A stretch of DNA of 39,855 bases from Candidatus Woesearchaeota archaeon (lineage in GTDB: Archaea > Nanobdellota > Nanobdellia > Woesearchaeales > GW2011-AR4). The stretch covers positions 1-39,855 of the forward strand of contig JACPTC010000010.1 of NCBI GenBank assembly GCA_016192985.1, in the 5' to 3' direction. Each line of letters begins with the position of its first letter. Within the stretch, counting starts at the first letter, position 1. Positions 35,668 through 39,587 of this stretch are shown one piece after another. Below the pieces are notes generated by a model that saw only the letters and a list, made by a program, of their open reading frames with translations, was not told the origin of the DNA and did no database searches. A program made the translations under genes and the position numbers.

Positions 35668-36264
35668 ATGGCAGAACAAAATATAAGCCCGGAGCAGATT
35701 AAGGCATTGCAGGAGAAAATAAAGCAGATGAGTCCTGAAGAGCTGAAGGAATTCCAGAAAAAACAATGTATATTCTGCCAGATTGTTGCAGGCAAAGTAC
35801 AGTCAAGGAAAGTTTATGAGGACGAGAAAGTTGTTGGCATTCTGGACATAAATCCCGCAAATCCCGGGCATGTCCTTCTCCTGACAAAAGAGCACTACAC
35901 GATAATGCCGCAAATCCCAGATGAGGATGTTGCCCATACGTTCATGATAGTCAAATCGCTTTCCAATTCCATGTTAAGGGGCATTGATGCGCAGGGCACT
36001 AATGTGATAGTTGCCAATGGAATTGCAGCAGGACAAAGGGCACAGCATTTTATGGTCCACATAATACCGAGAAAGGACAATGACAACATAAACTTTATAC
36101 TCCCGCAGAAACCAATGGACGAAAAGCAAATAGAGGCTATAGGCAATAAACTGATTGCTGGTTTGCAGGGCGTTGAAAAAAATGATGCGGTACAAGAGAA
36201 GGCAGAGCAAAAGGGCTCTAGCGTTAGCTTGGATGAAATCTCAAGATTGATGGGTGCGAGATAA
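35668..36264 (+). CDS. HIT-family protein with altered triad (HxMxH)
   Basis: The 198-aa protein has a 30-residue helical extension, the CIFC zinc-type pair (34-37), the HIT core KVYEDEKVVGILDINPANPGH, and the triad region GQRAQHFMVHIIPR. The usual HxHxH is His127-x-Met129-x-His131: the middle His, the covalent nucleophile in HIT hydrolases, is replaced by Met. A C-terminal helix ends in LDEISRLMGAR. The stop overlaps the next ATG (TAATG), so the two HIT genes are coupled. Confidence 0.9.
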   Translation: MAEQNISPEQIKALQEKIKQMSPEELKEFQKKQCIFCQIVAGKVQSRKVYEDEKVVGILDINPANPGHVLLLTKEHYTIMPQIPDEDVAHTFMIVKSLSNSMLRGIDAQGTNVIVANGIAAGQRAQHFMVHIIPRKDNDNINFILPQKPMDEKQIEAIGNKLIAGLQGVEKNDAVQEKAEQKGSSVSLDEISRLMGAR

Positions 36265-36815
36265 TGGCTGACAAAGCAAAGGAAAGCTGCTTAGTGTGCC
36301 AGATAATTGGAAACAAGATACCTTCAAAAAAGGTTTATGAAGATGATTTAGCGATGGCTGTGCTGGATGTAAATGGCGCTAATCCCGGCCATTGCTTTGT
36401 AATGCCAAAAAATCACTATCCCATAATAGAGCAAGTGCCTGATTTGGAAATAGGGAGACTCTTCCAAGTGTCAAATAAAATTTCGAGTGCAATATTCGAG
36501 TCGCTTGGTGCGCAGGGAACAAACATATTTGTTGCAAACGGGATTCCTGCAGGCCAAACTGTCGCGCATTTTGCCATAAACATAATCCCAAGAATGGAAA
36601 ATGACGGCATAAACCTACAATGGCAGCCAAAGCAGCTCAGCGAAGAAGAGATATCCACAATTGAGCTAAGGCTAAAGGAGCAGACAAAAAACATAGGCAA
36701 TTTTGAAAAACATGATGCAAAAATGCAGGCTCGCAAGCCTGCATTTTTGCCAGATAAATTTTTGTCAGAAGATGAGGAGGAATATTTTACAAGGCAGATG
36801 AGAAGGGTGCCATAA
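36264..36815 (+). CDS. HIT-family protein with degenerate triad (HxAxN)
   Basis: The 183-aa protein is a paralogue of the preceding gene: CLVCQIIGNKIPSKKVYEDD, LDVNGANPGHCFVMPKNHY, and the triad region GQTVAHFAINIIPR. Only His102 of the triad remains; the nucleophile position is Ala104 and the third is Asn106, so hydrolase activity is unlikely. The pair may form a pseudo-enzyme heterodimer that binds nucleotides. Codons 152-163 (AKMQARKPAFL) are encoded by a perfect hairpin at 36717-36750. Confidence 0.9.
   Translation: MADKAKESCLVCQIIGNKIPSKKVYEDDLAMAVLDVNGANPGHCFVMPKNHYPIIEQVPDLEIGRLFQVSNKISSAIFESLGAQGTNIFVANGIPAGQTVAHFAINIIPRMENDGINLQWQPKQLSEEEISTIELRLKEQTKNIGNFEKHDAKMQARKPAFLPDKFLSEDEEEYFTRQMRRVP
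36717..36750. repeat. Intragenic hairpin, 15-bp perfect stem
   Basis: GCAAAAATGCAGGCT (36717-36731), loop CGCA, then the exact complement at 36736-36750. It lies in frame within the second HIT gene and is more GC-rich in its centre than its surroundings. Confidence 0.88.
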
Positions 36816-37553: not shown

Positions 37554-37982
37554 ATGACTGATGGATTAGCGACAGCAATTGCTCAAAAATCTTTGTATGA
37601 TCCACATTTACCCTTATCCATGGCAATTACAAGAATATTTGACCTGGAGGCTATGGCAGAGTCACATTCACAAAATGGTAGGCATCCAAATAATGAGCGA
37701 ATGAGGGAGGCTTCATATTGGGATGATATAGGTTCTGGATACCATATTGGAATCACAATCAAAGATGGTGCTTATTATATGATTTTGCGGGCACCAAATG
37801 GCAGGCGTTCTATGACTTACAGATATTTTAATGGCAGAGGCACATTGGTAAATCATAATACAGGTAAAGGAATGGCTACTATGGAGTCTCTTCCTCCACA
37901 TATTGCATTACATACAATGCTTATAGAAACGATGCGGCCTTCTATAACAGCAGCATCAGAGGATTCCCAAAAACCCATGTAA
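37554..37982 (+). CDS. Unknown 142-aa protein
   Basis: I do not recognise this product. It has a helical start (LATAIAQKSLYDPHLPLSMAI), a central beta-rich segment (GYHIGITIKDGAYYMILRAP, RRSMTYRYFNGRGTLVN) and a helical, Met-rich end. There are no cysteines or membrane helices. It has a good promoter of its own. Its last 41 bases overlap the 3' end of the convergent prepilin peptidase gene, so the two mRNAs would be complementary there. Confidence 0.65.
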   Translation: MTDGLATAIAQKSLYDPHLPLSMAITRIFDLEAMAESHSQNGRHPNNERMREASYWDDIGSGYHIGITIKDGAYYMILRAPNGRRSMTYRYFNGRGTLVNHNTGKGMATMESLPPHIALHTMLIETMRPSITAASEDSQKPM

Positions 37983-38847
37983 TGCAGAAAGCGATAAAAA
38001 AGCTCGGCACAAATGGAATGCCTTCCTTTATCAGGATTTTTCTGACTTTTTTTTGCTTATGAAACTGGACAAGCTTGCGAATTTGGCTTTTGCTTATTCC
38101 AAGCTCCTTTGGGCCTGTAATATATTTGCCCTCAACATAAACGTCATCAACAATCCAATCCCCTTCAGTGAGCTTTGACGGTTCAACTGATTTATACATT
38201 GACGATTTTTCAATTGCCTTGACAAAAATCCAAAGGTAGAACGTAACCAGAATAAGAAGCGAAGCCGACAAGAGAAGAGTCCTTATAGTATTAGTCCTCA
38301 CAATAAACAACAAGCTGAATAATAATGCCAGAAGGAATATTACCATTGTTTTTTTAATTTTGACAATATTTTTTCCGGATGATATTTTTGTGTATGCCGT
38401 TAAAAATTTCTTCTTGTTTTTAAAAGCGAGCCATATGCTCCACAGCAATCCGTAAATCGCTCCTACAAACAAAGAGCTTATAAAAAAGCCAAACAAAAAT
38501 TGATGTGATGTAGAGCTTAAATCAATGCCAATCATTGCTCCCAGCCCCATCAGAATCTTGCTGTCGCCGCCCCCCCACTGGCCAGCGTAGAACATTATAT
38601 ATGCTATTCCAAAGAATATTATCAGTCCTACAATGCTGTTTATTATGAAAGAATGGGTCGAGTATATGACAGAAAACAGCAAGTTTAAAGCAATGCCTGA
38701 AATTATTAAGCCATAATTGAGCCAGTCTGGGACTTCCCTTGTTTTCAAGTCAGTAAGCGAGGCAGCTAAAAGGGCTACAAAGGAGATTCCATAGGCCACA
38801 ATAGAAGGCGCAATCCATGAGCCAAACCAGTCATAAACCATATTCAT
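37942..38847 (-). CDS. A24-family prepilin peptidase (PibD/FlaK type)
   Basis: This integral-membrane aspartic protease cleaves class III signal peptides of pilins and archaellins. The catalytic pair is Asp33 in SLTDLKTREVPDWLN and Asp95 in the GGGDSK form of the GxGD motif. The 301-aa chain has about seven hydrophobic helices, and a cytosolic loop with EGDWIVDDVYVEGKYITGP that is common in archaeal members. The pilin-like protein at 30824 is a plausible substrate. It is divergent from the cis-prenyltransferase-like gene, sharing the AT-rich interval 38848-38915. Confidence 0.9.
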   Translation of the reverse strand: MNMVYDWFGSWIAPSIVAYGISFVALLAASLTDLKTREVPDWLNYGLIISGIALNLLFSVIYSTHSFIINSIVGLIIFFGIAYIMFYAGQWGGGDSKILMGLGAMIGIDLSSTSHQFLFGFFISSLFVGAIYGLLWSIWLAFKNKKKFLTAYTKISSGKNIVKIKKTMVIFLLALLFSLLFIVRTNTIRTLLLSASLLILVTFYLWIFVKAIEKSSMYKSVEPSKLTEGDWIVDDVYVEGKYITGPKELGISKSQIRKLVQFHKQKKVRKILIKEGIPFVPSFFIAFCITWVFGNPLMLLL

Positions 38848-38915: not shown

Positions 38916-39587
38916 ATGGATATGATTAAACACCTAGCAGTTAGCTTGGACGATATTTTAGATTGGTGCAGGAAAAACAGCATCAATGCTGAAGATGGGT
39001 TTGAAAGGTATTTTAATCTTCTGGCCAGACTGATGGAGCACCAGATTAGGCTGGACATCCCGATTTTGACAGTATATCTTCTACCTGACACCCAAAATCC
39101 GACAGACCATCAAATCTCATTTTTTGAGCATTTGGCGGATTTCTTTGAAAATCTATCTCACATGCAGCTAATATCTGGGCAAAAAATAAAAATATCAATA
39201 TTCGGCAAATGGTACAAGCTGCCCGGCAAAGCAATTGAGGCAATGAAAAAGGTGATAGATGAAACAAAGGATTACGACAGCTTTTTTACAAATTTCTGCA
39301 TAAACTATGACGGCCAAGAAGAGATTGTAGATGCGTGCAAACTAATAGCCAAACAGGTTGAGCTAGGCAAGCTTGATGCGGAGATGATAACAAAGGAAAC
39401 AATAAAGGAAAATATTTATTCCTCATATTTTTTAGCTCCTGACGCTATCCTTATTTACGGCGAAAGAAAATTAACTGGGATTTTGCTTTGGGACTCAAAT
39501 GGTGCAAGAGTTATTTTTACAGACAAATCATTTGTGGATTTTGAAGACAGGGATTTAGAGAGATTAAATCTACAGTCGTTAAGATAA
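38916..39587 (+). CDS. Degenerate cis-prenyltransferase (UppS fold), NgBR-like
   Basis: The 223-aa protein follows the UppS/cis-prenyltransferase order: IKHLAVSLDD where the family has KHVAIIMDGN, DIPILTVYLLP for the (L)TLYAFS strand, FGKWYKLP for the (I)GDxxxLP turn, NFCINYDGQEEIVDA for N.A..YGGRxEI, and APDAILIYGERKLTGILLWDS then VIFTDKSFVDFEDRDL for the C-terminal signature. The DGN(R) motif is DDILDW and RTGGExR is IYGERK, so substrate-phosphate-binding residues are lost. It resembles the non-catalytic NgBR/Nus1 partner of heteromeric enzymes. A catalytic partner is not in the window. Confidence 0.8.
   Translation: MDMIKHLAVSLDDILDWCRKNSINAEDGFERYFNLLARLMEHQIRLDIPILTVYLLPDTQNPTDHQISFFEHLADFFENLSHMQLISGQKIKISIFGKWYKLPGKAIEAMKKVIDETKDYDSFFTNFCINYDGQEEIVDACKLIAKQVELGKLDAEMITKETIKENIYSSYFLAPDAILIYGERKLTGILLWDSNGARVIFTDKSFVDFEDRDLERLNLQSLR

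Follow-up and report, generated by a model that had tools for sequence, protein, structure and literature searches.

A conserved woesearchaeal family of cis-prenyltransferase homologues with a lost catalytic site, tentatively read as repurposed binding proteins

The window, the whole stretch of 39,855 nucleotides of woesearchaeal DNA analysed here, encodes a catalytically dead paralogue of cis-prenyltransferase (cPT), referred to below as the dead copy (38916..39587, + strand, 223 aa, ATG start; PF01255, AlphaFold, VIA-align). The dead copies in Woesearchaeota are one conserved family. Comparison of their sequences establishes that the fold has been kept, the substrate site abandoned, and the gene held under purifying selection at one inherited locus. 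Our first-ranked reading, to which we give just short of an even chance, is that the dead copy is a binding pseudoenzyme, an archaeal-type cPT that lost its function and was then repurposed. The family represents either a new regulation of carrier-lipid synthesis or a new use of the fold, and its genes should not be annotated as undecaprenyl diphosphate synthase.

Fold, catalytic site and constraint

The window protein matched PF01255 at 90.7 bits (E = 1.3e-25), far above chance given the cut-off of 27. It also matched 16 UppS-type NCBIfam models, every one under its cut-off. An AlphaFold model (pLDDT 91.0, pTM 0.87; this run and alignment A3 covered 78/80 named loci, leaving out L127 and L137, which have extended frames) aligned with UppS 1x09 over 221 residues (VIA-align, Z 27.1, rmsd 2.0). 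Among the best 50 structural matches listed, the closest solved structures were UppS enzymes and cPTs akin to them, and DHDDS scored Z 25.7; NgBR chains were not among these 50, with one chain printed per entry. Strand A begins at residue 6 of the model and close homologues begin alike, so that the protein has no N-terminal membrane segment. Sequence and fold similarity both place the protein in the cPT superfamily, as a full-length cPT fold and no fragment. The clear fold signature named in a preliminary description of this DNA was borne out.

We observed that the window protein retained 1/11 catalytic positions when compared with 61 catalytic homologues from the same phylum. All 92 distinct family members retained 0-3 of these positions and all 61 catalytic homologues 10-11, with none intermediate. 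DGNxRW, RTGGExRxS and the catalytic His and Glu, which mark catalytic UppS and cPT enzymes, were not found in the window protein. The remnant of the DGNRR substrate loop is D12-D13-I14-L15-D16 (38949..38963, + strand). Its 'LDD' aligns with 'LDG', which makes D12 the Mg-binding Asp (E. coli D26, human DHDDS D34), and the Asn and two Arg are replaced by I14, L15 and D16. The D, N, R and R of this loop were present in 61/61 catalytic homologues. Also replaced are the catalytic His, the late Glu and, within SxExxxR, the N and the R. In the former RTGGExRxS segment (39453..39476, + strand), I180 stands for R194, K185 for R200 and T187 for S202, and the equivalent of E213 is R198. The labels R194, R200, S202, E213, H43 and N74 follow what we take to be the E. 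coli UppS numbering, an assumption that does not extend to D26.

According to the preliminary description, DGN and RTGGE were missing and the residues that bind diphosphate and Mg were replaced. RTGGE is indeed absent, DGN is absent as a whole and the arginines are lost. The statement on Mg needs correction because D12 aligns with the Asp of DGN. This remaining Asp, kept in the window protein, could in principle serve an unusual active prenyltransferase or a diphosphate hydrolase, and Methanosarcina mazei MM_0014 is described as active despite having no RxG (PMC8131916). We consider an active enzyme improbable. The Mg-binding Asp was retained in only 23/92 family members, R200 in 13/92, E213 in 6/92, H43 in 3/92, and R194 and N74 in 1/92 each. 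Changing D34, R37, R38 or R211 singly in human DHDDS is described as lowering activity several-fold (PMC7573591).

The C-terminal RxG of NgBR-type activation, which the preliminary description had suggested checking, was absent from the window protein, whose tail is DLERLNLQSLR. It was missing in 88/92 family members, the window protein among them. Four dead-copy tails (4/92; L090, L116, L120 and L163) can be read as RxG. Dead copies from other genera of the window's family end in QKG plus one or two residues.

Information per position, expressed as the ratio of the dead family to the catalytic set, was 0.51 at residues 12-24 and 0.38 at residues 58-63. The ratio was up across residues 81-176, with peaks at 117-122 (1.67) and 168-176 (1.87). 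Residues 91-149 (39186..39362, + strand; GKWYxLP, TKDYDxFF, NFCINYDGQEEIVDA) form a C-terminal constrained block (ratio 1.2-1.7, with invariant columns) that is better conserved in the dead family than in catalytic enzymes. The second constrained block, residues 164-176 (39405..39443, + strand; KENIYSSYFLAPD), contains the peak of 1.87. W192 and D193 (39489..39494, + strand) were each present in 91/92 dead-family members, and the D193 column holds Gln in 53/61 catalytic homologues. Constraint was gained at W99, Y100, D121, F124, C128, S170-A174 and others. The fall of the ratio at the substrate sites and its C-terminal rise show that the pocket was abandoned and that a C-terminal face came under new constraint. 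For alpha5 and alpha6, matched to the human cPT dimer face by element counting, the ratio was 1.20-1.24; these are described as the DHDDS/NgBR interface elements (PMC7573591).

For a repurposed binding protein, we envisage that an ancestral archaeal-type cPT lost catalysis with its fold retained. The dead copy would still dimerise, most likely with itself, via the retained alpha5/alpha6 face, and would act by binding, not catalysis. Binding would occur via the newly constrained C-terminal surface (GKWYxLP, TKDYD, NYDGQEE, KENLYSSYFLPPD), and the function would be independent of a dedicated catalytic cPT partner. Candidate ligands are a protein, a phosphate (polyprenyl or other) and a ribosomal component from the adjoining operon.

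Family, selection and locus

Dead-copy orthologues occur throughout the order, and named records with the gene are nearly all Candidatus Woesearchaeota, Nanoarchaeota or unnamed archaea. L131 and L112 also carry it, under the titles Methanosarcinales archaeon and Candidatus Aminicenantes bacterium. Either the titles or the bins are probably mistaken, since L131 shows the peptidase/L7Ae/NDK order. Our search of the open-access literature on woesearchaeal, DPANN and Archaeoglobus cPTs, with subscription journals mostly outside its scope, found no paper on the family.

In a tree of 98/178 rows, built without the 80 named loci (inner support modest, 14/95 branches starred), the dead copies formed one clade, with an SH-aLRT of 89 without the long-branch row L061 and 30 with it. 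The dead family fell in a 97-starred set with the intact archaeal-type L078 and L161 and two class-level homologues, separate from the canonical enzymes of the same genomes. L078 (from G044) and L161 (from G223) are the closest catalytic kin of the dead family, sharing the WDS and YDG signatures as well as the tree set. Unlike the dead family, they have intact catalytic residues and RxG and do not lie at the prepilin peptidase locus. No peptidase or L7Ae neighbours were found within the ~10 kb read around these two active genes, which leaves descent in place from an active enzyme as no more than a possible origin of the dead copy. In G044 the archaeal-type enzyme coexists with a dead copy.

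The dead-copy gene is under purifying selection, as judged from its substitutions. We obtained a dN/dS of ~0.07 (0.073/1.06) for the close pair L039/L043, and the dead copies of G045 and G221 differed at pN 0.15 and pS 0.79 (saturated). Over 79 aligned rows of dead copies, 9 columns were invariant and 22 nearly so, and conserved columns cluster in the C-terminal half. The dead-copy alignment A2 excluded L061 as too divergent. Several members have lost the helix that follows the former DGN loop. A decaying gene with no function would account for the patchy distribution (53/139 genomes) and for losses within the genus of the window genome. We give this reading almost no credence, and the conservation of the sequence already refutes it: the dN/dS, the invariant columns and the conserved locus all stand against decay.

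The divergent neighbour of the dead copy is a prepilin (type IV leader) peptidase of the A24 family (37942..38847, − strand; PF01478, 59.4 bits), and the two genes are divergent in 76/83 distinct loci. A HIT-domain gene pair (35668..36815, + strand; PF01230 in both) is part of the conserved locus, and HIT lies upstream of the dead copy in 61/108 loci, duplicates included. An L7Ae/L24e/NDK block follows downstream on the same strand in 35/83 distinct loci. The 108-locus count comes from 27 relatives and 80 named loci that overlap, the 83-locus and 92-member counts are de-duplicated, and contig ends truncate some of the loci. The window carries the left half of the conserved gene order, after which the contig ends. 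Between the HIT pair and the peptidase are a winged-helix regulator (PF13412; 36830-37426, − strand) and an ORF without a Pfam match (37554-37982, + strand).

We considered a functional tie between the dead copy and the prepilin peptidase and rejected it, as the peptidase occurs in 54/59 relatives, some of them without a dead copy. The adjacency is for this reason probably inherited.

Canonical enzyme and possible roles

The preliminary description had proposed a search for a canonical UppS elsewhere in the genome, and one canonical cPT gene is present. It runs off the end of contig C14 and continues at the start of C20, the two contigs sharing an exact 141-base overlap, and it carries DGN, RPGGExR and RRFG, with the tail RRFGE. 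A perfect 31-base tandem duplication (L002 1453-1516, contig C14) lies over its DGN codons, ~350 bases from the broken end of C14, and shifts the frame; it may be an assembly error or a very recent mutation. Among paired genomes (n = 24), the catalytic paralogue has its own RxG in 23/24 and NxG in one.

Inactive cPT homologues with known roles belong, as subunits, to heteromeric cPTs of dolichol or rubber synthesis. To our knowledge, all non-catalytic homologues of known role (NgBR, Nus1, plant CPT-like) are cPT subunits, so that the prior is on the side of a partner. On this reading the dead copy would be NgBR-like, forming a heterodimer with the canonical cPT and tuning its activity or the length of its product chains, with no RxG handshake involved. 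We rank this reading second; it is plausible, and we lean against it. The canonical cPT of the window genome, the four tails readable as RxG, interface elements alpha5 and alpha6 more conserved than in enzymes, and a C-terminal half kept while the N-terminal half is eroded, as in NgBR, all speak for it. So does an archaeal precedent, the heteromeric cPT of M. mazei (MM_0618/MM_1083), as described in PMC8131916. The placement of RxG on the enzyme instead of the dead copy speaks against it.

We assessed co-occurrence in 139 genomes at least 92% complete, with the window's own not counted and classes assigned by hand; probably every genome in the analysis is a metagenome assembly. Both genes were present in 46 genomes, the enzyme only in 52, the dead copy only in 7 and neither in 31, and 3 were unclear (G060, G133, G056). 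A partner role is consistent with the presence of the enzyme in 46/53 dead-copy genomes. The dead copy was also commoner with the enzyme than without it (46/98 vs. 7/38; P = 0.003, Fisher), a point for the partner that drops to P = 0.10-0.15 once the large family f34, with no dead copy in any genome, is excluded. Weighing against a partner, 52/98 enzyme-bearing genomes have no dead copy, and 7/53 dead-copy genomes (at least 92% complete), G045 included, have no recognisable catalytic cPT. Three congeners of the window genome have the locus intact with the dead copy cleanly deleted, and retain the canonical enzyme.

A DHH gene flanks the canonical enzyme in the window's family. We found no enzyme in G045 (98% complete) or its congener G221 (91%), both of which keep the DHH gene. 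The absence of the enzyme from G023 and G126, two of the seven genomes with the dead copy only, is doubtful because the flanking DHH gene is missing from both assemblies; an assembly gap likely hides the enzyme in G023 and possibly does so in G126.

Across 24 genomes, the dead copy showed no co-evolution with the enzyme (partial distance correlation 0.08, reached by 527/2000 permutations). The correlation with the neighbouring peptidase was 0.72, reached by 0/2000 permutations, as expected under shared inheritance. The catalytic partners of dead copies came from several separate tree branches (L075, L077, L078, L079 and the main clade). Both the lack of co-evolution and these unrelated enzymes count against the partner. 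We rejected an obligate NgBR-type heteromer on the missing RxG of the dead copy, the congener deletions and the genomes in which the enzyme is missing.

A negative regulator would form mixed dimers with the canonical cPT and poison it by withholding the RxG tail. Because this tail is described as crossing over from the opposite subunit (PMC7573591), the active site of the enzyme in a mixed dimer would have none. The objections to the partner apply equally here, and purifying selection was also seen in the G045/G221 genus, where no enzyme was detected; we regard this role as quite improbable.

We place the repurposed binding protein narrowly ahead of the partner: the tests lean against a dedicated cPT partner, and precedent leans for one. 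In its fuller form, the cPT fold would have been exapted as a non-enzymatic binder with a role outside polyprenol synthesis, beside the prepilin peptidase and ribosomal genes even where no catalytic cPT is recognisable; we put this forward only tentatively. If true, the fold would have found a use beyond the enzyme and its heteromeric partners.

The preliminary description had also suggested that the gene may mark the polyprenol route for glycan transfer in this lineage. This link proved unspecific, as STT3/AglB was present irrespective of the dead copy (38/46 genomes with both genes, 7/7 with the dead copy only, 47/52 with the enzyme only). GT4 (PF00953) was found in 24/140 genomes and likewise showed no pattern. 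The dead copy was rejected as an N-glycosylation marker, STT3/AglB occurring with it, without it and without any cPT. STT3/AglB was also present in 25/31 genomes without a recognisable cPT, many of them in f34, and lacking in 6/31. The carrier lipid of the cPT-less STT3 genomes must come from a host or an undetected enzyme, or be another lipid.

Comparison with known systems

Dead cPT homologues are already known as a kind. Like NgBR and Nus1, the dead copy has the cPT fold but lacks the catalytic residues and occurs alongside a catalytic cPT, and its C-terminal half is conserved and its N-terminal half eroded. Non-catalytic cPT subunits are described as resembling other cPTs in the C-terminus only (PMC7839719). 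Unlike NgBR and Nus1, the dead copy has neither a C-terminal RxG (NxG in yeast) nor an N-terminal membrane segment, and each of the two genes is found without the other. NgBR's C-terminal RxG is described as crossing over to complete the DHDDS active site (PMC7573591); here RxG is on the resident enzyme, the reverse of the human pair. Against PDB sequences, the family profile matched UppS at 5.9e-38 and DHDDS at 7.4e-35 (catalytic matches spanned 1e-38 to 1e-32), and its matches to NUS1 chains were far weaker (0.0038-1).

The NgBR/Nus1 pattern seen in the preliminary description thus holds in outline only. A dead homologue beside a catalytic cPT, N-terminal erosion and C-terminal conservation agree with it. 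RxG on the enzyme, the three deletions, the 7/53 genomes without an enzyme, the lack of co-evolution and the weak NUS1 match do not.

The dead copy resembles homodimeric UppS (PF01255) in its full-length fold (Z 27.1) and likely dimer elements, and differs in that dead copies retain 0-3/11 catalytic positions. M. mazei MM_0618/MM_1083, compared by its description only, is likewise archaeal, with two cPT paralogues acting together (PMC8131916). The dead family differs from the known kind in its ancestry, in lacking RxG with the RxG on the enzyme instead, in the lack of a membrane segment and in its independence from enzyme presence.
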